Assembly: GCF_000384155.1 (NCBI RefSeq)
Contig: NZ_KB913031.1
Coordinates: forward strand, 434,001-498,000
Reading direction: 5' to 3'
Length of the DNA: 64,000 nucleotides
From: Methylophilus sp. 42
Lineage (GTDB): Bacteria; Pseudomonadota; Gammaproteobacteria; Burkholderiales; Methylophilaceae
Under the pieces are notes generated by a model, which saw only the letters and a program-made list of their open reading frames with translations, had not been told where the DNA came from and made no database searches. Position numbers and translations under genes: made by a program. Positions 3,660 through 34,835 of the stretch are shown piece after piece; position 1 is the stretch's first letter; each line of letters begins with the position of its first letter.

Positions 3660-5148
3660 GGGTCAGCCTCTCCTCTATATTGATTGGCCAGGTAAACCGG
3701 ATAGCACAGCCACGGATGCCGTCAGAAGCAATGCTGGTGTTGCCACCGTAGGCTTCTACAATCTTTTTCACCAGCGCCAGCCCCATGCCGCTACCTTCTA
3801 CTTCATCGCGTGGCCGCAGGGTTTGGAACATAATGTAGACACGCTCCTGGTATTCTGGCGAAATGCCCGGCCCGTCGTCAGTGACGCTGAATTCATAAAA
3901 ACCTTTGCCGGCGGTGCGACCACTCAGCTGAATGCGGCCTTGCGCTTTATCATGGTGCTTGATGGCATTTGCAAACAGGTTGCGCAGCACTTGCTCCAGC
4001 GGCGTGGCAAGCGTGGTAAAGGTGGGCAAGTCTGGGTCTACTGCCAGGGTGAACCCGTCGGGCGGCGCTTGTAGCTCGAAAACAGTTTGCGCCCATTTGC
4101 CGAGGTCGACCTGGCTGACGCTGCCTTCCATGCGCCCGGCGCGCGAGTAGGCCAGTAAGTCATCCAGCAGGCGCTCCATTCTGCGCAGGCGGCCACGTAG
4201 CATGTCCATGTGTTGCGGGATGGCATCGATTTGACCATTGTTGAGGTCTTCTTCAATCCAGTGCGAAATCTGGAAAATACCGCGCAACGGTGACTTGAGG
4301 TCATGCGAGGCGACATAGGCAAAGGTCGCCAATTCTTTATTGCTGCGCTCGAGTTCATCGCGGTGTTCCGCCAGTTTTTCACCCGCTTTTACCCGCGCAG
4401 AAATATCGGTAATGGCTGACAGTACTTTGACGCCGTCGTCGGTTTCGATCGGGTTCAGCCCCACCTCTACCGGGAATTCGCTACCGTCTTTGCGACGGCC
4501 AAATAAGTCGCGTCCGCTCCCCATGGCACGTGGGCTCAAGTCAGAAAAAAACGAAGCACGGTGATGCGGATGTTGATGGCGGAATCGCTCGGGCAGCAGG
4601 ATATCTATCGACTGACCCAGTAACTCAACCCGGCTATAGCCAAAGATGCTTTCTGTCTGGTTATTCACCATTTCGATGATGCCGCCTTTATTCACCATCA
4701 CCATGGCGTTGGGGGCAGCTTCAACCACTTGGCGAAAACGCTCCTCCATTCTTTTACGCGCCGAAATGTCGGTAATGGCTGATAGCACCTTAATGCCATC
4801 ATCCGTTTCAATCGGGTTAAGGCCCACCTCTACCGGAAACTCGCTACCGTCTTTGCGGCGGCCAAATAAGTCGCGACCAGTCCCCATGGCACGTGGGCTT
4901 AAGTCAGAAAAAAAGGATGCGCGGTGATGTGGATGTTGACGGCGGAATCGCTCGGGTAGCAGGATATCTATCGACTGGCCCAGTAACTCGGCCCGGCTGT
5001 AGCCAAAGATGTTCTCTGTCTGGGTGTTCACCATTTCGATGATGCCAGTGTGATTGACCATCACCATCGCCGTAGGTGCGGCTTCCACCACCTGGCGCAA
5101 GCGCAGATTGGCCCGTTCGATATCCCCAATGTCATCATGCATGACCAA
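3631..5148 (-). CDS. PAS-PAS sensor histidine kinase
   Basis: 505 residues, no membrane segments. Two PAS domains (about 20-131 and 141-252) are near copies of each other. The HisKA H-box is FAYVASHDLKSPLR with phospho-acceptor His282. The HATPase domain has an N-box (NLFANAIKHHDK), G1 box (DDGPGIS) and G2 box (GSGMGLALVKK). The layout is that of the soluble bacteriophytochrome-type kinases but without GAF/PHY domains, so the signal is probably sensed by the PAS pair (ligand unknown). First gene of the kinase/REC/REC-GGDEF-EAL operon. The ATG at 5148 is taken as start; the N-terminal sequence before PAS1 is short. Confidence 0.93.
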   Translation of the reverse strand: MVMHDDIGDIERANLRLRQVVEAAPTAMVMVNHTGIIEMVNTQTENIFGYSRAELLGQSIDILLPERFRRQHPHHRASFFSDLSPRAMGTGRDLFGRRKDGSEFPVEVGLNPIETDDGIKVLSAITDISARKRMEERFRQVVEAAPNAMVMVNKGGIIEMVNNQTESIFGYSRVELLGQSIDILLPERFRHQHPHHRASFFSDLSPRAMGSGRDLFGRRKDGSEFPVEVGLNPIETDDGVKVLSAITDISARVKAGEKLAEHRDELERSNKELATFAYVASHDLKSPLRGIFQISHWIEEDLNNGQIDAIPQHMDMLRGRLRRMERLLDDLLAYSRAGRMEGSVSQVDLGKWAQTVFELQAPPDGFTLAVDPDLPTFTTLATPLEQVLRNLFANAIKHHDKAQGRIQLSGRTAGKGFYEFSVTDDGPGISPEYQERVYIMFQTLRPRDEVEGSGMGLALVKKIVEAYGGNTSIASDGIRGCAIRFTWPINIEERLTRANPAEAKL

Positions 5149-5402
5149 CCCCTTTGCACCAACAAAACTTGTCTGGCGAGTGTGAATCTAACTTCGAGTG
5201 TCTCTGGAATGCGTGCTACGGATACTTTGTTCTATTTACGCTCAAGTATATCCATGACGTTGTTGGGAATGCAATGTGTAAGGCCAATGTTTGTGACGAT
5301 ATTTTTTGTCCACATGACTGGATTGAGCCACGAGAAGAGATGGCTGTATGACGTTGAGGCACAAAGTATGAATGTTGCCTCAACAGTGAAACTGTTGGGA
5401 TG

Positions 5403-5582
5403 TTATGGGATGCCAATAATCTTGAGGTATTCCTCAAGGGTCAATGTGAGTGTTTGCAGTGAGTTATTCACTTCGTCCAAGTGCTGGTTGCCATTCAGGT
5501 GCAGTTGCTCTAACAACGCTTTGTGTTTTTCAACCGCGTCTAAATGTGCCTCCAGTGTTGCTTCTTTGAGTGCTTTGGTCAT
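5403..5582 (-). CDS. Small conserved-looking protein, 59 residues, function unknown
   Basis: Short reading frame read on the minus strand, start ATG at 5582 preceded by a purine-rich ribosome site (GAAGGGG). The protein begins MTKALKEATLEAHLDAVEKH and ends YLKIIGIP. It is predicted almost wholly helical and amphipathic, with Leu spaced for a helical hairpin or coiled coil; no Cys, no signal peptide. It lies alone between the histidine kinase operon (upstream start at 5148) and the YgjP-like gene and is transcribed away from the latter. I do not recognise the family. A good ribosome site, an open frame and helix-like amphipathicity argue for a real gene. Confidence 0.55.
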   Translation of the reverse strand: MTKALKEATLEAHLDAVEKHKALLEQLHLNGNQHLDEVNNSLQTLTLTLEEYLKIIGIP

Positions 5583-5789
5583 GGTCGGTCCCCTTCACAA
5601 GATGTGTTTACTCTAACAGGCTTTGAGCGTGCGTGTTTAGCTTATATCAAGGCCTTTCATGTTTGAGTAATGTGAGGGCTGCAAAGTTTGCGGCCTATAT
5701 ACAGGCGATATTCGTCAGAACACGACATTCGACCAAGGCAAAAACATGTGTGGGTTGTTGCAAGGCTGTCTGCTGATTAAAATGACAGC

Positions 5790-6299
5790 ATGTCTGCTGC
5801 ATTGATTCAACAATACCTCCCTGGTTACCCCGCCCATTTACGTGCGAAAATTACGCAATTGCATGCGCAGGGACAATTGGGGACTTATATTCAACAACGC
5901 TATCCGCAGGTGCATGCCGTTCAAAGTGATAAAGCTTTGTATGACTTTTGTATTGAGCTCAAACAGCGCTATTTAAAAAATGCGCCGTTACTTGATAAAG
6001 TGCATTTTGATAACAAGCTGACGGTTGAAAAGCAGACCTTGGGCTTGAACACAGCAATCTCGCGCGTGCAGGGTGGCAAGCTCAAAGCCAAAAAAGAAAT
6101 CCGTATTTCGGCATTTTTTAAAACGGCACCGCTGGAGTTTTTGCAGATGATTGTGGTGCATGAGCTGGCGCACCTTAAGGAGCGTGACCACGATAAGGCG
6201 TTTTACCAGCTGTGTTTGCATATGGAACCCAACTATATGCAATATGAGTTTGATTGCCGTGTGTATTTGTTGTCGCTGCTGTTAAGTGAAAGTGAGTAA
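5790..6299 (+). CDS. YgjP-like zinc metallopeptidase (DUF45/M48-type)
   Basis: 169 residues. The zinc-site motif HELAHLKERDHDKAFY (HExxH plus a third His) near residues 118-133 is typical of the YgjP/DUF45 (WLM-like) family of cytosolic minigluzincins. The preceding stretch KKEIRISAFFKTAPLEFLQ also fits the family. Family members resemble the SprT/WLM fold; substrates are generally unknown. Somewhat short compared with YgjP (about 170-240). No signal peptide. Monocistronic, and convergent with the methyltransferase that ends 4 bp downstream on the other strand. Confidence 0.75.
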   Translation: MSAALIQQYLPGYPAHLRAKITQLHAQGQLGTYIQQRYPQVHAVQSDKALYDFCIELKQRYLKNAPLLDKVHFDNKLTVEKQTLGLNTAISRVQGGKLKAKKEIRISAFFKTAPLEFLQMIVVHELAHLKERDHDKAFYQLCLHMEPNYMQYEFDCRVYLLSLLLSESE

Positions 6300-6303
6300 A
6301 CGC

Positions 6304-7290
6304 TTATGTATCGGCGGCGGCACTGATTAACTGTAGCAAGGCGTCACTTTCAATGGTCGGTTTGTTTACCAGTAACCAGACCGCGGCAATTCTGTCTGCC
6401 TGTGCATAGGCGGTTGTAGCTAGTTCCTCGCCAAAAATATCCGGGTCTATTTCTGTGTATTGATAGGTGCATCCTGCCATTTTGATACTGTGTTTAACGG
6501 CCTCGATGAACGGATCATGCCCGTGAATGATGGCGACCCCGGTATAAAGCATAAGGATGCCGCCCGGTGCCAGTCGGGCTAACGCCGCCTCAACAATATC
6601 CAGCGACAGTTGTGCCCCCAGCGGGCCGTGACCATGCCGGTAAGCGCGGGCGGATGGGTCGACCAGGTAAGGCGGGTTGGAAACTATCAGGTCAAACTCG
6701 CCAGGCAGGTCGTGCAGCAGGTCGCTGTGGTGGAACGCTACGTTGCTAATGCGATTGGCTTTGGCATTGATGGCGGCAAACGCCAGTGCCTTGGCATTGA
6801 TATCTACGCCTATGCTCTCGGCATAAGGCAATGCTTCAGCCAGCAAAATGGCGCCGACACCCGCGCCAGTACCAATATCGACACAGCGCCGTACTTTGCC
6901 TTGCAATGTCGACAGTGCACCATACATGGCATTGATAAAGCGATAGGTGTCCGGGCCGAAAAACACGGCATCGGCGGCGTCAGTCGGAAAGCTGGAATGT
7001 AAAAACAGCTTGTCTTGAATGCTTGAAACGCGCACTTGCGACTGCCAGCCTTGCGCCACTGGCCGCAAAATATTGGCTTCTTTCATGCGTGCAAATAGCG
7101 CTGCGTCTAGCGTTTCTTGCTTGAATGGCCGGTTCCAGCCGAAGATATCCTGAATGCTTTTTGCCCAGGCATTGCCCGACCGCTGGTTCACCAGATGATG
7201 GGTTGCCGGGGTTACCGTCACAAAGCTGTAGTGACGCTCATAGAGCGCCAGCAGTAACTGTTCTAATGGGGGATGGAGGTGTTTTTCCAC
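6304..7290 (-). CDS. Class I SAM-dependent methyltransferase (HemK/RlmG-like small-domain type)
   Basis: 328 residues. SAM-binding motif I is VDIGTGAGVGAILLAE, followed by the acidic motif GVDINAKAL and the catalytic motif SNPPYLVDP, which marks N-methyltransferases acting on amino groups of bases or glutamine (HemK/PrmC, RlmG, TrmN6). An N-terminal domain of about 130 residues precedes the catalytic domain. The start is a GTG at 7290 with a good AAAGGACG ribosome site. The substrate cannot be told from sequence; PrmC itself is usually shorter and next to prfA, which is not the case here. Confidence 0.82.
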   Translation of the reverse strand: MEKHLHPPLEQLLLALYERHYSFVTVTPATHHLVNQRSGNAWAKSIQDIFGWNRPFKQETLDAALFARMKEANILRPVAQGWQSQVRVSSIQDKLFLHSSFPTDAADAVFFGPDTYRFINAMYGALSTLQGKVRRCVDIGTGAGVGAILLAEALPYAESIGVDINAKALAFAAINAKANRISNVAFHHSDLLHDLPGEFDLIVSNPPYLVDPSARAYRHGHGPLGAQLSLDIVEAALARLAPGGILMLYTGVAIIHGHDPFIEAVKHSIKMAGCTYQYTEIDPDIFGEELATTAYAQADRIAAVWLLVNKPTIESDALLQLISAAADT

Positions 7291-7484
7291 GATGCCGTCC
7301 TTTAGAGGTGAGTGTTGGTAGCTTAACAGAATGTTACTTTCTGTTTAATCAGCGAATTCCTACATGACGCTCATACATCGTCTGATAGAGCGTTTGATCA
7401 TATCTGCGTAACTTATGTGTTTTCTACTTGCTATTCCATTTGGGCTATTCCATCTGGCAGGTTAATGCATTGGAGACCGCAGCG

Positions 7485-8960
7485 ATGTCAGTCATCAGCA
7501 AACAAATCGGGAAGCATCAGCAAACAGTCCAAGACTGGTCCGCCAAGTCTATGTACTTTTCACTGTTGGCGCCTTCCGGTTTTAGCAAGGGCCGGGCAGA
7601 TAGCCTGGGTTTTCTGGCCGCCAATTTGCAGGAAACCAGCCATCATTTCACCAATGTGCCCACACATCCTGCGCAACTGGAGGCGTGGTTGCTTGAGCAA
7701 CATGCGGCAATCGGCCAACAGTACCAGGAGTATCTTGCCGCCAGAAAAGCAGGCGAGCCCCGCTGGTATTTCAGTAGCAAATCGCATGCCTTGTATTTTC
7801 TGCGTGCAGTCGCGCCGACCAAGATGGTTGATGGGGCCTGGCTATATGGCTTTACGCGCCACTGGCAGGACACGCGCTTTACCTCCTTGTTAAAAATTTA
7901 TCTGGAAGAGTTGGGCAATGGCGTTGAAGCCATGAATCATGTGGCGCTATACCGCAAACTGCTGAAAGTGAATGAGTGTGATGACTGGCGCACGCTGGAC
8001 GACAAGTTTTTCACACAAGGCGCTGTGCAACTGGCGTTGGCCGCAAATGTTGAAACACATCTGCCAGAAGTGATTGGTTTTAATCTGGGCTATGAGCAGT
8101 TGCCGCTACATTTGCTGATCACGGCATATGAACTCAAAGAGCTGAATATCGACCCCTATTACTTTACCTTGCATACCACCATTGATAACGCCCATAGCGG
8201 GCATGCCAGGGCGGCGATTGATGCCGTCAGCGAGGCGATGCCTACGTTTGGTTCTGTACAGAACTATATGGCGCGCATTGTGGCAGGGGTTAAGTTAAAT
8301 GACGCCGGCCTCGGTACGCTGGACCTGATCAAACACTTTGACCTGCTGGCTGAAGTGGTCCGCGTGCTGCAAAGCAAAGCCAGTATTGGCCAGTATATGC
8401 ATGCCAACCATTGTGTGATTGGGGATAAATCCATCAATGCGTGGCTGGCTGATGCCGACCAGGTGGCCAGGTTGTTATCTGTGATGGAAAAAACTGGCTG
8501 GATAACACGCCATCAAGACCCTGAACAGAGCCGTTTCTGGCAAATGATTGCGGCGGATAAAGCGCCGATGTTCGGCGTATTCACTGCTTATGAGAGACAA
8601 GTGCTGTATGACTGGATTGCGGGTGAGGCGCTTGAGCGCTTGCCCCGACTGGCGCGATTGGGCGCGCCTTGGCGAATGGCGGAGAAACAATCCCTGCCTA
8701 AGACGCCTGAAGGGCACCCGCCTGGCAATATTTACGACTTGCGTTCAGGTCGCCGTGTTGCTCAGGCATTGCAGGTGGACAATGACTTTCATCAGGACCA
8801 ATTATCGCTGGAGCGCTATCTGCAAGGTTTGGGGCAAAAGCGTATGGATTTCCTGATTGACTGGTTATCGCCTGCCAAGCACCATACACCGCTGGGCTTG
8901 TGTGCGACACGTTATTTCAAGGCGTATGTCGATGCGCCATACGGGCAAACTGATGATTGA
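7485..8960 (+). CDS. Haem-oxygenase-like diiron (HDO) superfamily protein, iron-containing redox enzyme family
   Basis: 491 residues from the ATG at 7485, chosen because of the GGAGACC ribosome site (the frame is open further upstream). Residues about 95-260 look like the iron-containing redox enzyme family: EELGNG around Glu141/142, His152, then GYEQ with Glu204, and HTTIDNAHSGHA with His230, Asp234, His237 and His240 as possible metal ligands. HDO enzymes use O2 to oxidise or cleave small substrates (for example p-aminobenzoate synthesis by CADD, N-oxygenation, olefin formation). The extra N-terminal (about 90) and C-terminal (about 230) regions are longer than in characterised members. No linked biosynthetic genes; monocistronic. 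Substrate unknown. Confidence 0.7.
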   Translation: MSVISKQIGKHQQTVQDWSAKSMYFSLLAPSGFSKGRADSLGFLAANLQETSHHFTNVPTHPAQLEAWLLEQHAAIGQQYQEYLAARKAGEPRWYFSSKSHALYFLRAVAPTKMVDGAWLYGFTRHWQDTRFTSLLKIYLEELGNGVEAMNHVALYRKLLKVNECDDWRTLDDKFFTQGAVQLALAANVETHLPEVIGFNLGYEQLPLHLLITAYELKELNIDPYYFTLHTTIDNAHSGHARAAIDAVSEAMPTFGSVQNYMARIVAGVKLNDAGLGTLDLIKHFDLLAEVVRVLQSKASIGQYMHANHCVIGDKSINAWLADADQVARLLSVMEKTGWITRHQDPEQSRFWQMIAADKAPMFGVFTAYERQVLYDWIAGEALERLPRLARLGAPWRMAEKQSLPKTPEGHPPGNIYDLRSGRRVAQALQVDNDFHQDQLSLERYLQGLGQKRMDFLIDWLSPAKHHTPLGLCATRYFKAYVDAPYGQTDD

Positions 8961-11965: not shown

Positions 11966-12244
11966 GGCTGTACTTCACATAAGCAGATCGAAGCGCCATT
12001 AAACACTGCTTTAATAACACATGTAAATATATGTTTTATTGGCGGGTGCTTAAAAGTGATTGCAGATGGGGTGAGCCAGTCGTTAAATTGCTTTTACGTG
12101 ATTTAATGAAACGTCTGCGGATGTTTTCTATTACACTCATCCAGCGCCTCTAAGTCACGCAGTGACAGCGTCATCTCATTTGATTTTTTGTATTCGAAAG
12201 TGTTTTCTTGTTGGCTTTGCGCGCATACAAGAGCATCCATATTT

Positions 12245-13822
12245 ATGTCCAACGCGTTTTATTTCAATCTGATTCTATTTTTTCTGGTGGCGATTATTGC
12301 GCTAGAAGTGTTGGCGAAAAAGCTACGTTGGCCACCTGCCGTGGCGCAGTTAATCGGTGGCGCACTGATCGCCTTTATCCCCGGTTTGCCTGCGTTTGAG
12401 ATTGATCCTGCGCTGGTGTTAGTGGTTTTCTTGCCACCACTACTGATGGCGGGCGCTTATTTCACGGTGTGGCATGAATTCAGGCGCCACCTGGTGGGGA
12501 TTTTGCTGCTGGCGATAGGCGCGGTGCTATTTACCACCCTGGTGGTTGGGCTGGCACTGCATAGTTTGACGCCGGCCCTGCCGTGGGCAGCCTGTTTTGC
12601 CTTAGGCGCCATTGTGTCACCGCCGGATGCCATCGCCGCCAAGGCGGTGTTGCAACGGGTGGCGTTACCGCGCAAATTGCTGGTGTTGCTGGAGGGTGAA
12701 AGCCTGCTCAATGATGCAACCGGCCTGGTGTTATACAAGTTTTCGATTGTGGCCATGCTGACCGGTGTGTTCTCCATGGCGGGGGCGGTTGAGGAGTTCG
12801 CCTGGCTTAGCGTCGGCGGCATCCTGCTGGGCGCCGCGTTTGGCTACCTGGTCTATAAAACCTTGCGCTATTTGCATGACACCGAGCTCATGATTCTCGC
12901 CTCTGCCTTACCGGGCTGGATTTGTTATGTGGTGGGTGAACATATTGGTGTTTCGGGCGTCATCGCGACGGTTACCTACGGCATGATGCTGGGCTGGCAC
13001 CAGCATGAAATCATGACGGCCACCGCCAGACGTCGCGGTGCCGCGTTTTGGGAAATCATGATTTTTGTCTTTGAGTCGCTGGTGTTTATCCTCATAGGCC
13101 TCTCCTTGCGTGGGGTGTGGGACCGTATTGCCGACGGTAGCAAATCAATTGCTGATTACAGCCTGGAGGTGTTGCTGGTCCTGGTGGTGGTGATTGTGTC
13201 GCGCTTTGTCTGGGTGTTTGCCGTCGATGGGCTGGCTGGATTATTCAGCAAACACGCAAGGTCTGCCTCAGGCGGCTGGCGTGAATCATTTGTGACCAGT
13301 TGGGCCGGCATGCGCGGCGTGGTGACACTGGCGGCCGCGCTGGCGGTGCCTGCCGAGGTGCCGGGGCGTGATTTGATGCTGCTGTGTGCGTTTGCCGTGA
13401 TTTTAGTCACCGTATTGTTTCAGGGTACCAGCATCGGTTGGGTGATACGCGTACTCAAATTAAAAGCCACGGCCCATGAACGTACTTACCTTAATGAGCC
13501 GCAAACCTGGGCGCGTATAGAGCAGGCGCAATATGCAGTGGTCAACAAGCTGGCTTATGACGAACAAGGCAAGCTACAGCATCCACGATTACTCGAACAA
13601 TATGGTTATCGCCAAAGCTTGTCAGACAAACATAAAAATGACGCCATGTTGCCAGACGATATCCGTAAAGCGCATTTTAATGTGGTGCTGGCCGCAGTGG
13701 CCGCCGGGCGTGAGGAGTTGCTGAAGCTGCATCGTTCCGGACAGATTCATGATGAACTATTGCATATGATGGAGCGTGATCTGGATATCCAGGAAATAGC
13801 AGCATTGCATAGCCGGGGATAA
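12245..13822 (+). CDS. Na+/H+ antiporter, CPA1 family
   Basis: 525 residues from ATG 12245; a longer frame starts at a TTG but lacks a ribosome site and adds a non-membrane tail. About 12 transmembrane helices. The CPA1/NhaP-type ion site is visible as GAIVSPPDAIAAKAVLQR (the Asp of the PPDA motif) and EGESLLNDATGLVLYKF. A cytoplasmic C-terminal tail of about 110 residues ends the protein. It would exchange external protons for cytosolic Na+ (or K+) at the inner membrane for pH and salt homeostasis. Monocistronic. Confidence 0.92.
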   Translation: MSNAFYFNLILFFLVAIIALEVLAKKLRWPPAVAQLIGGALIAFIPGLPAFEIDPALVLVVFLPPLLMAGAYFTVWHEFRRHLVGILLLAIGAVLFTTLVVGLALHSLTPALPWAACFALGAIVSPPDAIAAKAVLQRVALPRKLLVLLEGESLLNDATGLVLYKFSIVAMLTGVFSMAGAVEEFAWLSVGGILLGAAFGYLVYKTLRYLHDTELMILASALPGWICYVVGEHIGVSGVIATVTYGMMLGWHQHEIMTATARRRGAAFWEIMIFVFESLVFILIGLSLRGVWDRIADGSKSIADYSLEVLLVLVVVIVSRFVWVFAVDGLAGLFSKHARSASGGWRESFVTSWAGMRGVVTLAAALAVPAEVPGRDLMLLCAFAVILVTVLFQGTSIGWVIRVLKLKATAHERTYLNEPQTWARIEQAQYAVVNKLAYDEQGKLQHPRLLEQYGYRQSLSDKHKNDAMLPDDIRKAHFNVVLAAVAAGREELLKLHRSGQIHDELLHMMERDLDIQEIAALHSRG

Positions 13823-23511: not shown

Positions 23512-24534
23512 TTAACTGCCTTGTTTCAGTTGAATAATTTGCTGCGTGACTTTTTCGCCCTGGTCTTTATCCACTGCGCTGATCGCCGGTTGCAGTGACT
23601 GCAAGGTAGTCAGGTCTTTTTGCGTAAATGCCACGCGCGATAACGCCAGCATGGCGTCATAGTCGCGCTGGTTCAAGTCATAAGCATGTTTGAGATCTTG
23701 CTCAGCCTCGGCGTATTGTTGCAGGCCTTCTTCTGCTAGCCCTAGAAAATACCAGGCATCGGCCGAAGTTGGCTCTTGCTTCGCCCATTGGCTGGCAATC
23801 GACTTCAGATTAGCCCAGTCGCCGTTCTGGTAAGGAATCACCACCTGCATAAAGTAGGGCCGTTGTTCTAGTGGCAATGCCCAGAACGGCACTTCATTGG
23901 TTTTCAATGAAATAACTTCAGGTGCGTCCATCAGCTCTTTAATCCATTCAGCGGGTAGGCTGTAGTAAAACGCCTGGTGTCCTGGGCTCTTGAAGGTAGT
24001 GAGCCCGATCAGGTTGAAATTTTGGTCAAACAGGGCGCCGCCACTGGAGCCCATCAAGAAAGAGGCATTCGTGCGCACAATCATGCTGCCATCGTAAGGA
24101 TAAATGCCTTTGATATTGCCATAAGACAGTTGCGGTACAGGCGCCGCGGCCGGAAAGCTCAGGCTAAACACTTCCTCTTCGTATTGCAGCGTTTTGCTGT
24201 CGCGCATGGGGAGTGGTTTAAACGGCAAGGGATCAAATTTGAGTAAACATACATCGCGCTTCCAGTTGGCTTTGAGCGCAATAGGCCGATAGCCATCACG
24301 GAACTTGGCAATATTGGCGCCATTGCTGTTGGCGATGACATGACAGTTGGTGGCCACGTATTCCGGGCTGACCACCACGCCCGAGCCCCGGCCATTGGAG
24401 CCGCCCGGCATGTCGGTGGTGACCATCACAATCGAGTGGCCTAATTCAAGTGTATCGACGATGCTAGGTTGTGCCTGCACGTGCACCTGCCCAAGCCCTG
24501 TCCACATTATCAGCAATAACAATAACCGTTTCAT
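23512..24534 (-). CDS. Secreted trypsin-like serine protease with C-terminal TPR region (paralogue 1)
   Basis: 340 residues from ATG 24534, chosen because MKRLLLLLIMWTGLG starts a clear signal peptide and a GGGAGCC ribosome site precedes it. S1C-type catalytic triad: His in YVATNCHVIA, Asp in KRDVCLLKFD, Ser in GSSGGALFD. No PDZ domain; instead residues about 240-340 form two TPR-like helix pairs (WYFLGLAEEGLQQYAEAEQD). Likely periplasmic. Its closest visible relative is the gene at 56150-57157 with the same architecture. Substrate unknown. Confidence 0.85.
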   Translation of the reverse strand: MKRLLLLLIMWTGLGQVHVQAQPSIVDTLELGHSIVMVTTDMPGGSNGRGSGVVVSPEYVATNCHVIANSNGANIAKFRDGYRPIALKANWKRDVCLLKFDPLPFKPLPMRDSKTLQYEEEVFSLSFPAAAPVPQLSYGNIKGIYPYDGSMIVRTNASFLMGSSGGALFDQNFNLIGLTTFKSPGHQAFYYSLPAEWIKELMDAPEVISLKTNEVPFWALPLEQRPYFMQVVIPYQNGDWANLKSIASQWAKQEPTSADAWYFLGLAEEGLQQYAEAEQDLKHAYDLNQRDYDAMLALSRVAFTQKDLTTLQSLQPAISAVDKDQGEKVTQQIIQLKQGS

Positions 24535-24745
24535 ACAGGCTCCCATCGACAAAGGCCAATCGTTCTGATCATGCATCATGCACGAGTCTGAGCACTCTGA
24601 CCAGAATATCGCGTAAATGTTTTCCGTGATAGTTATTTTGTAGGCGTTTTCTGACAGGTAAATCGGCACCTGCCCACTTATTCAGCCAGCCCAGGCCCTC
24701 TAACATAGCGCATGAGATAGCCTGAGACGAAATTGAGTATTAAAA

Positions 24746-25257: not shown

Positions 25258-26490
25258 ATGTTTAAATCCTTTTTCCCTGATTCTCGCTGGTTCTGGCCTT
25301 CTGTCATTGTGTGGGCGACTATTTGCTGTGGTGTCTGGTTTGAGTTTTCTGCCGCCATTGGCGCTGTGTTTGGATTGTCATTGGCCGAAGAGCAGCCTGT
25401 GATTGGTCTGGGTCATTTTGTGACCGATTCCTTCAAATTGTTTTATGGCTATTATGCTGTGAGTGTGGCCCTGTTTGCGCTGGCCTGGTTTAAGCTTAAA
25501 CCCAGCCGTTGGCAATGGTGGTCTATCGTCGGCTCGGCATTCATCCTGTTTTCGACTTACTACTCGGTGCAAGTATCAGTGGCGATTAATAACTGGCGCA
25601 GGCCGTTCTTTGATGGCGTGCAGGCCGCCTTGTCGCCCAACTCCAAGGTGACCACAGCCGAGCTTTATACCTTGATGCTACAGTTTGCCGAAATTGCGTT
25701 CGTGGCGATTTTTATCTATGTCATCACGCGTTTCTTTGTCAGCCATTATATTTTCCGCTGGCGTACGGCGATGAACGATTTTTATACCAGTCAGTGGTCA
25801 CAGGTGCGTCGCATTGAAGGCGCCTCGCAACGGGTGCAGGAAGACACCATGCGTTTTGCCACTATTATGGAAGGCCTGGGTGTGTCCATGGTGGAGGCGA
25901 TCATGACGCTATTCGCGTTTTTGCCTGTGCTGTGGAGCCTGTCTTCTTATGTCAGCGAATTGCCGGTGTTTGGTGCCGTGCCCGCGCCGTTGTTTACGTC
26001 GGCGATTGCCTGGTCGGTGTTCGGTACTTTATTACTGGCCGCCGTGGGGATTAAGTTGCCGGGGCTGGAATTCAGGAATCAACGTGTCGAAGCCGCCTAC
26101 CGTAAAGAGCTGGTGTATGGTGAGGACAATATTGAGCGCGCACAACCGGCGACACTTACGTCATTGTTTATGGATGTGCGTAAAAACTACTTCCGCCTCT
26201 ATTTTCACTATATGTATTTCAACGTGGCACGCAGCTTGTATTTGCAGGCAGATAATATTTTCGCCTACCTGATTCTGGTGCCGACAATTGCGGCTGGCCG
26301 CATCACCTTTGGTATTCTGCAACAGATACTGACTGCGTTCTCACAAGTCAGCAACTCGTTCCAATATCTGGTGAATTCCTGGACCACGATTGTTGAACTT
26401 TTGTCGGTATACAAACGTTTGACCGCATTTGAAGCGGCCATCAAACACGAGGCGTTACCTGAGATTGAGGTAGAGCACACTGCGGTCTAG
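25258..26490 (+). CDS. sbmA: SbmA/BacA-family peptide (and cobalamin-type) importer
   Basis: 410 residues, about seven to eight membrane helices, no ATPase domain. Strong SbmA identity signs: MFKSFFPDSRWFW start, FVSHYIFRWRTAMNDFYTSQW, RIEGASQRVQEDTMRFA, GIKLPGLEFRNQRVEAAYRK and FRLYFHYMYFNVARSLYLQ. SbmA is a proton-driven inner-membrane importer of Pro-rich peptides, microcins and bleomycin; BacA-related proteins of some bacteria also bring in cobalamin. Monocistronic, with a terminator upstream. Confidence 0.94.
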   Translation: MFKSFFPDSRWFWPSVIVWATICCGVWFEFSAAIGAVFGLSLAEEQPVIGLGHFVTDSFKLFYGYYAVSVALFALAWFKLKPSRWQWWSIVGSAFILFSTYYSVQVSVAINNWRRPFFDGVQAALSPNSKVTTAELYTLMLQFAEIAFVAIFIYVITRFFVSHYIFRWRTAMNDFYTSQWSQVRRIEGASQRVQEDTMRFATIMEGLGVSMVEAIMTLFAFLPVLWSLSSYVSELPVFGAVPAPLFTSAIAWSVFGTLLLAAVGIKLPGLEFRNQRVEAAYRKELVYGEDNIERAQPATLTSLFMDVRKNYFRLYFHYMYFNVARSLYLQADNIFAYLILVPTIAAGRITFGILQQILTAFSQVSNSFQYLVNSWTTIVELLSVYKRLTAFEAAIKHEALPEIEVEHTAV

Positions 26491-26511: not shown

Positions 26512-28677
26512 TTATCTGGCCACCTGCTGAAAATGATCGAATTTTGGCTGCTGCTCGCGCATAAACTGCGCCAGCGCTTCATCCGATAACGGTCGGCTGT
26601 AATAGTAGCCTTGCCCGACATCACATCCACTATGCAGTAAAAACCGGTGCTGGTATTCGGTTTCTATACCTTCCGCCGTGACCGATTTATGCAAACTTTT
26701 GCCCAGGTTAATCAGCGCCAGCAAAATGTTGCCGTTAGTCACGCTTTGTTCCAGGTCTTGCACAAAGGCCTTGTCGATTTTTAACTCGTCAATCGGGTAG
26801 TTTTTGAGATAGGCCATATTCGAGTAGCCGATGCCAAAATCGTCAATGGCAATACACACGCCTAAGCGTTTCAGCTGCTCCAGTGTGCGTGTGAACATGG
26901 CTTCATCCTTGAAGCGGGCATTCTCGGTGACTTCCAGTGTAATCAGGTGTGGCGGAACGCGCTCCTGTCGTAATACGCGTTGTACGGTTTCGACCAGGTT
27001 GCCGCGCAGGAACTGGATAGGCGATACATTGACCGCAATTGGCACCATATAACCCCACTCGGTTTGCATGGACTTGATCTTCTGGCAGGCGGTCTGCAAT
27101 ACCCATTCACCAATGGCAAAAATATGGCCGGTTTCTTCGGCGACAGGAATAAACTGGTCGGGTGGAATCAGTCCGCGCTCCGGGTGCTGCCAGCGGATCA
27201 GCGCTTCCAGGGCGCTGATATTGCCGTGTTGCATATTGATTTGCGGCTGGTAATACAGCATGAGTTCCTGTCGCTGCATGGCGTGGCCCAGGCCATATTC
27301 AATTTCGTTGCGTTCTCCCAGTTGTTGCGCCAGGATGCCGCTGAACATTTGTACCTTGTTCTTGCCTGCATTTTTGGCGCTGTAAAGGGCCGAGTCGGCG
27401 CAACTGAGCAGGGCGTCTATCTCTTTGGCATGGTCGGGATAAATGCTGACGCCGACGCTGCAAGTCATGTTGAATACATAGTCGCCAATGGCAATCGGTT
27501 GCGAAATAGCCTCCATCACCCGTGCCAGCAATGGCTCGGCATCCTCAGCTACGCGCAAACCAGGGTAGAGCATGACAAATTCGTCACCGCCAAAGCGCAC
27601 AATGGCATCTGTGGGCCGTGTGCTCTGGATCAGCCTTTGCGCGACATTTTCCAGCAGTTTGTCGCCGGCGCGGTGACCCAGGGTATCGTTAATCAGTTTG
27701 AAGTGATCGAGGTCGATAAACGCAATGGCAATCTTGTTTTGTATCTTATCGGCCTCGGCAATCAGGCTGGCCAGTTTGCCACTGAAGGCATGGCGATTGA
27801 GCAAGCCAGTCAGGTTATCGGTAACGGCCAACTGGCGGATTTGCAGCTCATGGTTTTTACGGTCGGTAATGTCTTCTACCGTGCCTTCGTAATAAAGGAT
27901 CTGGCCTTGTGGGTCACACACAGCATGGGCATTCTCTGAGATCCAGATCGCTTCACCATTCAGCCGGTAAACCTCGGATTCAAAGTTATGGACCCGGCCT
28001 TGTGCGCGGATGGCTTCGGTAAATTCGCCACGTCTGTGTTCGGCCACATAAAGCTGGGTGCTGATATTGTTGAGGTCGCTGATCAGTGCTTGTGGAGAAG
28101 CATAGCCGTAGAGTTTGGCCAGCGCAGGGTTGGCATTAAGGTAGGTGCCGGACTCTGTCGTCTGGAACATGCCCAGCGTTGAGTTTTCAAACATGGAGCG
28201 GTATTTTTGCTCAGTGCTGAATAGTTCGTGCTCAATGCGTTTGCGGCAACTGATGTCCTGGATGATGCCTTCCAGCGCCACCGGCTTACCATCGTTATCA
28301 AATACGGCACTGCCGCGTTCGGTCACCCAGGTGATGTCGCCATTGGCGCGTATGATGCGGTACTCCAGCTCAAAACGCTCGCCTTTTTGAATGGCTGCAT
28401 CAATCGTGGTGCGTGCTTTTTCCCTGTCATCTGGATGGGTGATGATTTCGTAAGAAGTGGTTTTGTTGAGCAGCAAGTCTGGTGCCGGATAGCCGGTCAG
28501 GGTTTCGCACCCCTTGCTCACGTAAATCATGGTCCAGTTGCTGTCGTACAGGCAGCGGTAAATCATGCCATCCAGATTGTCCAGCAGCGTATCCAGCAAT
28601 CGCTGTTGCTGCGCGGTGAGTAAGGATTCCATGATGTCGTTTTGCATGATTCCAAAAAGGGTCGTCTGACTATTCAT
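26512..28677 (-). CDS. PAS-PAS-GGDEF-EAL c-di-GMP turnover protein
   Basis: 721 residues, no membrane helices. Two PAS/PAC units (about 25-145 and 150-270, each ending in the PAC-type IIQDISCRKR and TVEDITDRKN). GGDEF (about 280-445) intact as RFGGDEF with an RxxD site before it; EAL (about 455-705) intact with ALEALIRWQHP, AVNVS, EVTEN, DDFGIGYSN, LKID, AEGIET. Both synthesis and breakdown of c-di-GMP are possible, gated by the PAS sensors. Its start codon overlaps the stop of the upstream Cache-CheW gene (TGATG), so the two are translationally coupled and probably work as one pathway. Confidence 0.93.
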   Translation of the reverse strand: MNSQTTLFGIMQNDIMESLLTAQQQRLLDTLLDNLDGMIYRCLYDSNWTMIYVSKGCETLTGYPAPDLLLNKTTSYEIITHPDDREKARTTIDAAIQKGERFELEYRIIRANGDITWVTERGSAVFDNDGKPVALEGIIQDISCRKRIEHELFSTEQKYRSMFENSTLGMFQTTESGTYLNANPALAKLYGYASPQALISDLNNISTQLYVAEHRRGEFTEAIRAQGRVHNFESEVYRLNGEAIWISENAHAVCDPQGQILYYEGTVEDITDRKNHELQIRQLAVTDNLTGLLNRHAFSGKLASLIAEADKIQNKIAIAFIDLDHFKLINDTLGHRAGDKLLENVAQRLIQSTRPTDAIVRFGGDEFVMLYPGLRVAEDAEPLLARVMEAISQPIAIGDYVFNMTCSVGVSIYPDHAKEIDALLSCADSALYSAKNAGKNKVQMFSGILAQQLGERNEIEYGLGHAMQRQELMLYYQPQINMQHGNISALEALIRWQHPERGLIPPDQFIPVAEETGHIFAIGEWVLQTACQKIKSMQTEWGYMVPIAVNVSPIQFLRGNLVETVQRVLRQERVPPHLITLEVTENARFKDEAMFTRTLEQLKRLGVCIAIDDFGIGYSNMAYLKNYPIDELKIDKAFVQDLEQSVTNGNILLALINLGKSLHKSVTAEGIETEYQHRFLLHSGCDVGQGYYYSRPLSDEALAQFMREQQPKFDHFQQVAR

Positions 28678-31259
28678 CAGGCATACACCTGTTCAGCGGA
28701 TTGTGAACGCACGGAAAGCACTTTGTCCCACAGGCTTTGTGCGGTGATCAGGGTCAGCATGCTGTTTTGGGCGATATTGGCAATGGCAATGCCCGGGTTG
28801 TGGCTGGCACCCCGGAAAAAGGTATTCATCGGCTGAATCTGCGTTGGTGCCAGATAAGGGATTTCGCCCAGGGCAGAGACAAACAGGCCAAATCTGAGCG
28901 AGGCGGTTTTGTCTTCAATGACGATGATTTGCCGGTAATCCGTGAAATAGTGCGGATGTCCCAGCATGCGTGCCAGGTCAATCACCGGAATCACCTCTCC
29001 ACGGTAGGCGTGCATGCCTGCAATAAACGGTGCAGATTCAGGCAAGGTGCGCAGCTGGTCTTCATCAATCGCCTCGCGCACAAAGCGTGCTTCTATGCCC
29101 ATCCATGAGTCACCAACGTAGAAGGTGGCATATTCCTGGCAGTCCTGCCCGGACTGCGCAAACAGGTTGGGGTTAAATTTGTTGTGGATGACTTGCGCCT
29201 CGGCGTAGATACGCTGATTGATTTCATCCTCCTTGCCCAGAGGCGTGAAAATCAGCGCAACCACCTTGTTGCGGTAGCTATCTTGCTCGCTCTTGAATTC
29301 ACGGTAGCCATAGGCTGCGCGCGCGCCAACGGCATAATAGGTATTCTGGTAAATCGCAATATCAAATAGCTGCTCGCCCTCTTTAAGCTTACTAATGGCG
29401 GGCATCAGTTCAAAAACTTCGCCCATGGCAAAGTCTTTATGCGTGCTTGAAATGACATTGAGTTGTTCGTTCACAAACAAGGTGAAGCTGCCATTGACCG
29501 GCGTATCTGCCTTGTCTCGTGGAATTACGTCGCGCAGCATGGCCTGGAATTGCGGTGCGCTGTCGAATACGATGGCAATGCCACCGACGATACTGCTACC
29601 ATCCAGATGCCGTATAGGCGCGGCATAAATGTAAGTGTGTTTGTTATTGTAGAGAGGGGTGGGTTCAAACGGGGAGACCACGTAGTCTTGTGTAGAGGCG
29701 CAACTGCGCGTTCGACCTACCCATTCATCTGCCAGCTGGGTGCCAATTAGTTGCTGGTATTGTGAATTCGACACGGCCATGACCTCACCCTTGCGATCAA
29801 ACACAATCAGGTTGTCATATACGGTGTATAGGCTATTGATATAGCGCAGCACGTCGGTGACTTTGCGCTTGTCTTCATCCGCCAGGCTAGTTTGTGCTAA
29901 CAGCTCCCTAAAAACGTGTGTGAGCGCCCACCAACGTACATCATTGGCACGTTCATACAGGTTGCGGTCCATGATTTCTACCGCCAGCTGCGCATAAAAA
30001 CTGGAGTTTTCCAGCATCACCGACACCACGGTCTGATAGAGCTCAGACACCATGTTTTCAATGATCTGCTGCGTTTTATGGCCGGTATGGCTGATCTCGG
30101 AAAGCAGGCTTCTGGAAAAGTTTTTCTGCTGGGTATTCACATCATTGCTTTGCCGGATATTACCGTTCCAGACAGATTGATTCAGTTTGCTCTGGATATT
30201 GGCGGCCTGCTTGGGGATATTCAGCAGGCTTTCAGAAAAAATCAGCGGGCTACGCATGACTTTACGCAAGATATCCGCATCAATATTATTGACCATGTCG
30301 CGAATGCTCTGGTTGAACGCATGCTCTATCGGGATCATGGCCTGGCCCAGCCAGCCTGGCCCCAGATAACCCTGGTAGCCTTCTGACTGTTTGGTCACGC
30401 ACAGGTATTCGCGCCCGCTAAAGCGCGTCATAAACCAGTCCGTGTCGGTATCCACACATAGCGAAATGCCCAGCGGAATCTGGTACGGATCGCTGGAGGC
30501 AATCACGTTGCGCTCTTCATCCAGCAATACGCCTATGGTCCAGTCATTATGCGAAATCAGGTTGTGAAAGATGGTGTCCAGCTCGTTGACGAATTTAAAG
30601 CACAGGCACAGCACCCCCAGCGTGCGGTGGCCGTCTTGGCTGCGTACGGCGTGCGCATAGACCAGTGATTTATGCAGCTTGCCGCCGATATCTGTTTCAT
30701 AAAAACGCTCTACATACGGCGCTGTTGATTGCCGCGCCAGGGCCACAATCGGGTGGTAGTGGAACAGGGTGGTCTGCGTGTCATCCAGTTGATGCAGTAA
30801 CTGGCCTTCTTCATCAAACAGCACAATATTGTCGTAGACGGTGTATTTCTTCTGGTATTCCTGAAAGCGAAACTCGATACTTGCCTGGTCGGCGTCTTCC
30901 AGGATATCCGCAGCCTGTTTCTCCAGATAGTCACGCACCTCATTATCGGTAGCGAAAAATCCGATGTCTGCCGTACGCTCAAACAGGTTACGTACCAGTA
31001 AATTGATAATCTCAAATGCTTTTGAAGACAGTTGCGCAGCTGTTTTGTGCAGGGTTTCCTGCGATAAATGCCGTAACACATCGTTAGAAATGGTATTAAA
31101 CGCACTGCGGGTTTCTTCCATTTCGGAGCCGGTGCCGGACAGTTGTGCCATCAGTGCCAGGCTATCCCAGGCGTGCTGCAGTTGGTAGATGTTTGAACGA
31201 AAGTCATTGACCTTCTTGAAGTGGTTAGCCAAATCCTCGGTTAACGGTTGCGGGTGCAT
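28677..31259 (-). CDS. Large soluble double-Cache-like protein with C-terminal CheW domain
   Basis: 860 residues from ATG 31259 (AGAGG ribosome site; a Met 8 codons earlier is possible). No signal peptide or membrane helix is visible. Two Cache-like sensor halves recur: RNLFERTADIGFFATD...YTVYDNIVLFDEEG near residues 85-160 and RNLYERANDVRWWALT...YTVYDNLIVFDRKG near 440-510. A helical linker lies between. The last about 150 residues are a CheW domain (FYVGDSWMGIEARFVREAI; HAYRGEVIPVIDLARMLG). CheW domains couple receptors to CheA-type kinases. The combination suggests a cytosolic sensor-adaptor feeding a chemosensory array or the coupled c-di-GMP enzyme. Confidence 0.85.
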   Translation of the reverse strand: MHPQPLTEDLANHFKKVNDFRSNIYQLQHAWDSLALMAQLSGTGSEMEETRSAFNTISNDVLRHLSQETLHKTAAQLSSKAFEIINLLVRNLFERTADIGFFATDNEVRDYLEKQAADILEDADQASIEFRFQEYQKKYTVYDNIVLFDEEGQLLHQLDDTQTTLFHYHPIVALARQSTAPYVERFYETDIGGKLHKSLVYAHAVRSQDGHRTLGVLCLCFKFVNELDTIFHNLISHNDWTIGVLLDEERNVIASSDPYQIPLGISLCVDTDTDWFMTRFSGREYLCVTKQSEGYQGYLGPGWLGQAMIPIEHAFNQSIRDMVNNIDADILRKVMRSPLIFSESLLNIPKQAANIQSKLNQSVWNGNIRQSNDVNTQQKNFSRSLLSEISHTGHKTQQIIENMVSELYQTVVSVMLENSSFYAQLAVEIMDRNLYERANDVRWWALTHVFRELLAQTSLADEDKRKVTDVLRYINSLYTVYDNLIVFDRKGEVMAVSNSQYQQLIGTQLADEWVGRTRSCASTQDYVVSPFEPTPLYNNKHTYIYAAPIRHLDGSSIVGGIAIVFDSAPQFQAMLRDVIPRDKADTPVNGSFTLFVNEQLNVISSTHKDFAMGEVFELMPAISKLKEGEQLFDIAIYQNTYYAVGARAAYGYREFKSEQDSYRNKVVALIFTPLGKEDEINQRIYAEAQVIHNKFNPNLFAQSGQDCQEYATFYVGDSWMGIEARFVREAIDEDQLRTLPESAPFIAGMHAYRGEVIPVIDLARMLGHPHYFTDYRQIIVIEDKTASLRFGLFVSALGEIPYLAPTQIQPMNTFFRGASHNPGIAIANIAQNSMLTLITAQSLWDKVLSVRSQSAEQVYA

Positions 31260-31555
31260 CTTGTTGCCTCTTTCCCTATACATATTTTATTGTTGCCAGG
31301 GCAGATACAGCAAAAATGGTTCCCGTTTGGGTGGTTCAAATTGAAAAACAATGGCAAGAAAAATGCTTTTATTACAATATTAAGGCCATAAATGTCGTGA
31401 AGATGGCGTAAAAATCGCTTATCAAGTATTGAACTGGCCTTTAAATCACCTCTTTTTCAAGAAATTAACTTCTCCATGCCTTTTTCTAGTGCGTCAATAA
31501 CCAAAACAGTGCGGGTATTGGTGCCTAATTTTCTGATTTTAGTGGCATCTCTTCT

Positions 31556-33165: not shown

Positions 33166-33374
33166 TGCACGGTCAAAAAAGCAAAAAGTGCAGTGTATCA
33201 CGATCAATACATTTTCCTGTTTCTACCCCATGGTCGTCAGTGCCAGGGACTTTTGTCAGCCCGATACATGAGGATACAAAAACAGTGAAACTTCAAAGCG
33301 CTTTTACCGCTCATACTGCGCAGAGGCACTTTCAGTGAAGCGCCAATATTAAAAAAGCAAGAAAGGACGTTGTG

Positions 33375-34835
33375 ATGCAATCGTTTTTACAATCAAGACT
33401 CACGCATTGGGTGACCGTACCATTGGCGGTGGCCGCTTTGTTCGGCGCAGGCTACTTTATCAAAGGAAATACGCTGGTGAATCATGCGCAGGCCACGGCA
33501 CCGGTATCGGCAAAAACCATGACGGCGCCAAGCGCCTATATTACGTTGCCTAACTTTGCCAGCATTGCTTCTAGCCAGGGAGCGGCTGTAGTCAATATCA
33601 GCGTCACCGGTACGGTGAAAACCGCTGGTATTCCGGGTGTGGATCCTAACGACCCGATGTTTGAATTGTTCCGTCGTTTTCAACCCAACCTGCCACAAAC
33701 CGAAACGCCTATGAACGGCCTGGGTTCAGGCTTTATCGTCAAGTCTGATGGCGTGATCCTGACTAATGCGCATGTGGTCGACAAAGCGGATGTGGTGACG
33801 GTAAAACTGTCTGACAAGCGTGAATTTCAGGCCAAGGTGATTGGCGTGGATAAATTAACCGATGTTGCCGTACTGAAAATTGAGGCCAAGGACTTGCCAA
33901 CCGTGCATATCGGCAGCACCAAAAACAGCAATGTCGGTGACTGGGTAGTGGCGATCGGTTCGCCATTCGGTTTTGATAACACGGTGACGGCGGGCATTAT
34001 TTCGGCCAAGTCGCGCGCACTGCCAGACGAGGGCTATGTACCTTTCCTGCAAACCGATGTGGCGATTAACCCGGGCAACTCAGGTGGGCCACTGTTTAAC
34101 CTCAATGGCGAAGTGATTGGTATCAACTCGCAAATTTACAGTCGCAGTGGCGGCTATCAGGGCTTGTCATTCGCTATACCGATTGATGTTGCCATGGGGA
34201 TTGAGCAGCAATTGCTGGAAAAAGGCAAAGTCAGCCGTGGTCGCTTAGGCATTGGTGTGCAATCGATTAACCAGGATCTGGCCAGTTCGTTTGGTTTGCC
34301 GTCACCGAGTGGTGCGCTGGTGAGCAATATTGAGAAAAATGGTCCGGCTGATAAAGCAGGCCTGGAACCTGGCGATGTGATCGTCAAATTCAATGGTCAA
34401 AGCATAGACCGCTCCAGCGATTTGCCACCCATGGTAGCGAATGTGAAGCCGGGCAGCACGGTCGGTATGGAGGTCTGGCGCAACAAGCAATTGAAGAAAT
34501 TGTCTGTGCGTATCGATGAAATGCAAGCGGCGCAAGCCGGCCCGGCGACAGTGCCAGATAGTCAGCAATCTAAACTGGGCGTCAGCGTGCGCCCGCTGAC
34601 CTCGCAAGAGTTGGCACAAACGCAGCTCAAGCAAGGGTTGCTGGTTGAAGAGGTTGCTAAAGGCCCTGCGGCGTTGGCAGGCATACAGCCAGGCGATGTG
34701 ATCCTGGCGGTGAATGGTGACCAGGTTAAAAACGTGAGCCAGTTGCATGACAAGTTGTCGCAAAACGTGAAGAACGTGGCGTTGCTGGTGATGCGAGGTG
34801 ACAGCAAAATTTATGTGCCGGTGAAGATTAGTTGA
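33375..34835 (+). CDS. degP: Periplasmic serine endoprotease Do (DegP/DegQ/MucD-like)
   Basis: 486 residues. N-terminal signal/anchor (WVTVPLAVAALFGAGYFI). Trypsin-like domain with catalytic His in LTNAHVVDKAD, Asp in LTDVAVLKIE, Ser in NPGNSGGPLFN. Two PDZ domains follow (about 275-370 with GPADKAGLEPGDVIVKFNG, and about 390-485 with GPAALAGIQPGDVILAVNG). Degrades or refolds misfolded envelope proteins. ATG 33375 preferred over the GTG just before it. Ends at a strong terminator. Confidence 0.95.
   Translation: MQSFLQSRLTHWVTVPLAVAALFGAGYFIKGNTLVNHAQATAPVSAKTMTAPSAYITLPNFASIASSQGAAVVNISVTGTVKTAGIPGVDPNDPMFELFRRFQPNLPQTETPMNGLGSGFIVKSDGVILTNAHVVDKADVVTVKLSDKREFQAKVIGVDKLTDVAVLKIEAKDLPTVHIGSTKNSNVGDWVVAIGSPFGFDNTVTAGIISAKSRALPDEGYVPFLQTDVAINPGNSGGPLFNLNGEVIGINSQIYSRSGGYQGLSFAIPIDVAMGIEQQLLEKGKVSRGRLGIGVQSINQDLASSFGLPSPSGALVSNIEKNGPADKAGLEPGDVIVKFNGQSIDRSSDLPPMVANVKPGSTVGMEVWRNKQLKKLSVRIDEMQAAQAGPATVPDSQQSKLGVSVRPLTSQELAQTQLKQGLLVEEVAKGPAALAGIQPGDVILAVNGDQVKNVSQLHDKLSQNVKNVALLVMRGDSKIYVPVKIS

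Follow-up and report, generated by a model that had tools for sequence, protein, structure and literature searches.

We have identified a conserved family of soluble proteins, in which two tandem dCache sensor domains are fused to a C-terminal CheW domain, and its representative here is an 860-residue protein encoded in the genome of Methylophilus sp. 42. The gene lies in the window analyzed in this study, a stretch of 64,000 nucleotides (contig NZ_KB913031.1, positions 434,001 to 498,000). Both the family and its domain composition are firmly established. As to function, the protein probably senses a ligand inside the cell and docks into the chemosensory array by means of CheW, and in Methylophilus its gene is paired with that of a GGDEF-EAL enzyme. 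A sequence-only reading of this DNA had proposed two Cache halves and a CheW domain in one soluble protein, and this architecture was borne out by profiles, by the predicted fold and by the alignment of 37 members, the window protein included. The features of the window are as follows.

28677..31259, minus strand: open reading frame of the dCache-dCache-CheW protein, 860 amino acids
31047..31259, minus strand: N-terminal helical region, residues 1-71, conserved and preceding the first dCache domain (conservation and predicted helices)
30312..31046, minus strand: first dCache domain, residues 72-316
30021..30311, minus strand: helical linker with a conserved VWNGN motif, residues 317-413 (conservation; model confidence low)
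29241..30020, minus strand: second dCache domain, residues 414-673
28731..29132, minus strand: CheW domain, residues 710-843 (Pfam CheW)
28675..28679, minus strand: TGATG, the one-base overlap between the stop of the CheW fusion and the start of the downstream GGDEF-EAL gene
26512..28677, minus strand: PAS-PAS-GGDEF-EAL protein, designated P0002, 721 amino acids (Pfam, motif check and hydropathy)

Translation could also begin at an upstream in-frame ATG at position 31283, which would give a frame of 868 amino acids (28677-31283). The inner start is likelier, because the sequence AGAGG is found seven bases 5' of the inner ATG and the open frames of two other Methylophilus loci (L007 and L008) start there. 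As for the helices predicted in residues 1-71, the model confidence is low up to around residue 66.

The CheW domain was detected by its Pfam profile with an E value of 8.4e-18 and 64.8 bits (cut-off 23.5), covering positions 2-133 of the 138 in the profile, and a sequence search of the PDB with this part returned CheW chains (best E 3.4e-7). In the structure model the confidence of the CheW part is mostly below 50, and the assignment of the CheW fold rests on the profiles. The first sensor half matches Pfam dCache_1 with E 2.5e-10, but its 40.7 bits fall short of the cut-off (45), and the second half gave a Cache_WalK match alone in the Pfam scan, again below the cut-off. The predicted fold of both halves, nonetheless, matches solved dCache sensors, with two PAS-like sub-domains arranged behind a long N-terminal helix; an internal duplication had been noticed from repeated motifs, and the analysis shows the dCache domain to be duplicated. 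Sequence searches of solved structures were weak with the profiles of both halves, the best being 8w7p (E 0.0069) for the first and an adaptor-complex subunit (E 0.61) for the second. Of the 37 aligned members, 36 match dCache_1 and 35 match CheW at E ≤0.01. No known class of ligand was indicated by motif; R.WY, a motif of the amino-acid type, occurs in none of the 40 collected rows. Neither a receiver domain nor a CheR-type (SAM-binding) domain appeared among the Pfam matches of the window protein at E ≤0.1, and the MCPsignal profile had no match in the window protein or in the table of family members.

By eye, the helical linkers gave the impression of being derived from the tips of methyl-accepting chemotaxis proteins (MCPs), and this idea was not supported: when the linker was compared with the tip profile by hhalign, the probability was 5.85 in a different register, with a score reached by 2 of 99 column shuffles, and for the N-terminal region it was 0.1, with a score reached by 81 of 99 shuffles. 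A tip-like MCP pattern was present in one of the 40 family rows versus all 28 short receptors described below.

No membrane helix was evident by hydropathy in the window protein, in agreement with what had been claimed from its sequence; the highest mean over 19 residues, a simple measure, is 1.33. The corresponding maxima are 1.27-1.78 across the 37 members longer than 640 amino acids, versus 2.84 in one transmembrane MCP. We infer that the family protein stays in the cytosol. Cache domains are described as chiefly extracellular sensors, 78% of them being confidently extracellular, and two small Cache families as mainly intracellular (the accessible text of PMC4822843); judged by hydropathy, the extracytoplasmic placing that is usual for dCache does not hold for the window protein.

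Homologs closest to the window protein are those of seven other Methylophilus loci, with 76-96% identity, and outside Methylophilaceae the identity falls to 27-50% with invariant motifs kept in both halves. Full-length open frames were found in 35 of the 40 collected rows; the 37-row alignment omits three partial ones (L071, L073 and L074). In a draw of genomes from the order, 31 of 200 were matched at E 1e-10, namely 26 with the sensors and five solely in the C-terminal part, the latter being omitted where 26 genomes are counted below. The draw from the class gave 4 matched genomes out of 274, the window's own counted. Two members, L069 (8007-10028) and L070 (8001-9998), end after the second dCache domain and have no CheW. 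In the tree of the second half, these cluster within the family with the CheW-bearing L013 (support 85/50 for the trio and 99/96 for L013 with L069), which suggests that CheW was lost in L069 and L070. L013 itself (5941-8538) is a 41% identical relative in a Denitrovibrio metagenome-assembled genome (MAG), possibly due to inter-phylum transfer or to a binning error, and its adjoining genes resemble glycine-cleavage genes by eye. A further relative of the tandem form, from outside the class, is present on the reverse strand of L124; its open frame (4086-8093 in reversed-strand coordinates) has 1336 codons, with the first ATG at codon 484 and an end that is CheW-like by eye.

The dCache module of this family is not confined to CheW fusions. 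When genomes drawn from the phylum were searched with the profile of the second half, 33 of 398 were matched. Six of these have the tandem form, with both matches in a single protein, and the other 27 have one match each, in open frames that span 319-460 codons. All ten of the short proteins that were scanned, three from plasmid records included, had MCPsignal over the cut-off followed by a dCache_1 match below it.

L075 2815-3900, L077 2656-3831, L078 2827-3861 and L100-L123: short soluble receptors whose C-terminal dCache module follows an MCP tip

Like the window protein, these receptors have a related dCache module, an array-docking part and no evident membrane helix, but they carry an MCP tip in place of CheW, a single module and a shorter frame. 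Related soluble dCache modules therefore occur behind two array-docking parts, the MCP tip and CheW, and this is, in our view, the strongest reason to think that the module acts at the array, within the cell. A GGDEF gene lies 94 bases downstream of the short receptor in Methylobacterium currus (L075).

A link between the family and the array, as the sequence-only reading had proposed, is likely, and the CheW domain supports it. The dimer domain of CheA was found in 25 of the 26 genomes with a sensor-containing match, compared with 119 of the 174 others in the order draw (Fisher p 0.0013), and MCP or CheW genes adjoin the family gene in a few lineages. CheA is general in motile bacteria, and its co-occurrence may reflect this; it supports the link but does not prove it. 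One genome in which the family is present, G347 (94% complete), had no CheA match. The window's genome encodes one CheA, one stand-alone CheW and nine MCPs.

By alignment, both residues of the Glu38-Arg62 salt bridge of CheW are present in the window protein (E729 and R753), and across full-length members the equivalent of Glu38 is retained in 31 of 35 but that of Arg62 in 11 of 35. The R62A variant of CheW is reported to have essentially unchanged affinity for receptors and CheA and to impair chemotaxis (in the available text of PMC3828127), so a fused sensor whose bridge is loosened could dock to the array and yet show altered coupling. The same residues also fit an array-placing or array-shaping factor, whose CheW would merely be an anchor and whose dCache parts would bind proteins or be structural, partners being recruited with no sensing of a ligand. 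The CheW-like AIF domain of ParP, which promotes array formation (as given in the accessible part of PMC5706961), offers a parallel, and the neighbors of the family gene differ between lineages. Against such a factor, both halves retain the dCache fold, and those columns that are invariant or nearly so in the alignment of 37 rows fall almost wholly in the helices and the sensor halves; within CheW, where invariance is impossible with two rows lacking the domain, only A711 and G748 are nearly invariant. Furthermore, in the sister proteins an MCP tip precedes the related module, an arrangement like that of a receptor. We hence consider a purely array-shaping role unlikely, and an intracellular ligand sensor acting at the array remains the reading that we prefer.

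The gene next to that of the CheW fusion bears on what such a sensor would control. The overlap TGATG joining the CheW-fusion stop to the PAS-PAS-GGDEF-EAL start, noted earlier, was confirmed in the sequence. P0002 has the GGDEF motif, an RxxD site, EAL and DDFG among others, a set presumably typical of active enzymes, and no membrane helix is evident in it by hydropathy. The genome of 2.97 Mb has 46 GGDEF and 32 EAL matches, a dense c-di-GMP network. Elsewhere around the pair in the window are genes for an SbmA/BacA-like transporter (25258-26490, plus strand), a trypsin-like protease with weak TPR matches (23512-24669, minus strand) and a DegP-like protease (33372-34835, plus strand).

The same GGDEF-EAL gene follows the family gene in all eight Methylophilus loci, namely the window and L006-L012, of which L008 is from Methylophilus methylotrophus, the partner in L007 being seen in part as two frames close to the contig end. 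Other relatives have different arrangements. A different GGDEF-EAL gene precedes the family gene in L014 (a Methylophilaceae MAG), an EAL gene lies downstream of it in L062, and in L053 the order is GGDEF-EAL, MCP, GGDEF-EAL and family gene, all co-directional. In L055 the order is MCP, CheW and family gene, and in L052 the stop of the family gene overlaps the start of an MCP gene by one base. A nitrogenase-component-1-type gene (12244-13776, plus strand) begins four bases within the end of that MCP gene. L060 has an MCP gene upstream of the family gene with a gap of 488 bases, in which an opposite-strand open frame of 121 codons was treated as spurious.

We examined the neighbors in a survey of 28 genomes, which includes the window's genome and omits G468 (contig end) and the tandem-form G674, G827 and G820. 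To find neighboring genes, we ran tblastn (E 1e-6) with the P0002 domains, the CheW part and two MCP ends as queries, and expected counts were derived from the genomes' own gene counts on the assumption of 0.95 genes per kb and three CheW-type genes per genome. A GGDEF/EAL, MCP or CheW gene adjoined the family gene in six of the 28 genomes versus 1.03-1.47 expected (p 0.0007-0.004), in tests that were devised after the data had been seen and are uncorrected for relatedness; without L060, the count is 5/28 (p 0.004-0.017). MCP or CheW neighbors alone were found in three genomes versus 0.36 expected (p 0.006), or in two without L060 (p 0.05). Neighbors of the GGDEF/EAL type alone, three of 28 versus 0.66-1.11 expected (p 0.03-0.10), were weakly enriched, and a general pairing with the EAL gene was not supported outside Methylophilus. 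In 22 of the 28 genomes, no adjoining gene of any of these types was found by this search.

The pairing with a c-di-GMP gene, as had been proposed, thus holds for all Methylophilus loci and recurs with different GGDEF/EAL genes in L014, L053 and L062, but no such neighbor was found in 25 of the 28 genomes. The expectation that the exact GGDEF-EAL partner would remain linked in relatives failed beyond Methylophilus. As gene order, the c-di-GMP link is accordingly real in Methylophilus; elsewhere it is no more than suggestive.

One could suppose from these neighbors that the protein is a sensor for a c-di-GMP enzyme with no part in chemotaxis, the CheW domain having been re-used to contact GGDEF-EAL proteins outside the array. 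The one-base overlap in the window, the different GGDEF/EAL neighbors in three other loci and the two members without CheW would all suit this idea. GGDEF matches, however, are abundant, with 13-71 in each of 32 genomes, and the GGDEF/EAL neighbors taken alone are only weakly enriched, whereas the MCP/CheW neighbors and the co-occurrence with CheA favor the array. A role wholly outside the array is therefore quite improbable. That the protein is a decayed or orphan coupling protein with no clear role, its CheW drifting and its neighbors gathered by chance, is still harder to believe and can be largely set aside: the scarcity of Arg62, the two CheW-less members and the 22 genomes with no signaling neighbor found would agree with decay, but most rows are full-length, distant members keep invariant motifs in both halves, and signaling neighbors are enriched.

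In the preferred reading, that of an intracellular sensor acting through CheW, the tandem dCache domains would bind internal ligands, one or two in number, which could be small molecules or proteins. The resulting change in the dCache part would shift the CheW domain within the CheA/CheW ring, and the activity of CheA or the make-up of the array would be altered; the family protein may in this way let the cell sense an internal signal and relay it to the control of motility. In some lineages, such a sensor would also be coupled to the turnover of c-di-GMP. In Methylophilus, the protein would be produced together with the bifunctional GGDEF-EAL enzyme and would probably recruit or regulate it at the array, so that a single internal signal could set swimming control and local c-di-GMP together. 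A broader claim, which we put forward as a possibility and with considerable doubt, is that cytosolic tandem-dCache proteins constitute a separate class of chemosensory input, which bypasses MCPs, reaches CheA via a fused and loosened CheW and provides, in some lineages, the adaptor that is missing between a c-di-GMP phosphodiesterase and the array. If the preferred reading is true, arrays receive internal signals via the coupling layer and not through receptors only.

A connection with methanol taxis was also considered, and we found no tie between the family protein and MtpB or MtpA. In the accessible part of PMC10613068, MtpB is described as combining dCache with a signal peptide and a membrane helix, and MtpA as having the MCP signaling domain only. 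A literature search combining Methylophilus, chemotaxis and c-di-GMP found no paper.

Among known systems, the closest worked case that we found is CheWS of Treponema denticola, in which CheW is joined to a SAM sensor that resembles CheR; according to its authors, it is the first CheW-fused sensor to be characterized (PMC10653840, as far as its available text goes). By analogy, the family protein may work like CheWS with another sensor. CheWS likewise unites CheW with a sensor of a ligand inside the cell, is thought to signal within the array and is linked to motility and biofilm; in the window protein, too, a sensor is joined to CheW, and a membrane helix is not evident. In the published description, nonetheless, CheWS has one C-terminal CheR-like sensor, in contrast to the two N-terminal dCache domains here. 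That study reports 30 undescribed CheW architectures, 12 of them with input domains (Fig. S10), and the word "cache" is absent from its main text. Our literature search found no description of a dCache-CheW fusion, although Fig. S10 may list one, and the search does not show that such a description is absent.

Other CheW-containing proteins resemble the family in part. CheV combines CheW with a receiver domain (according to the available text of PMC12691637) and is thus similar in having an added regulatory part, but a receiver was not found in the window protein. ParP, a polar-placing protein, enters the array through the CheW-like AIF domain of a larger protein, and in its description in the accessible text of PMC5706961 no dCache is mentioned. 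For the placing of dCache inside the cell, the parallel is the intracellular dCache_1AM proteins of Actinobacteria, whose dCache is called unusual and a rare example in the available text of a preprint (PMC10104139); these differ in standing alone, beside a transcription factor gene, with neither CheW nor a tandem.

Finally, the phosphodiesterase Pch of Pseudomonas aeruginosa, with GAF, PAS, GGDEF and EAL domains, is located at the array with CheA, and its authors think an adaptor likely, CheW-like and receiver domains being the sole CheA-binding domains then known (PMC3861689, in its accessible part). P0002 is likened to Pch by its domains, and the difference is that in Methylophilus a candidate adaptor is encoded beside the GGDEF-EAL enzyme. 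The Methylophilus gene pair would hence be a concrete example of the type of adaptor thought likely in that study, and, because it offers such a candidate, the link between the array and c-di-GMP becomes directly testable.
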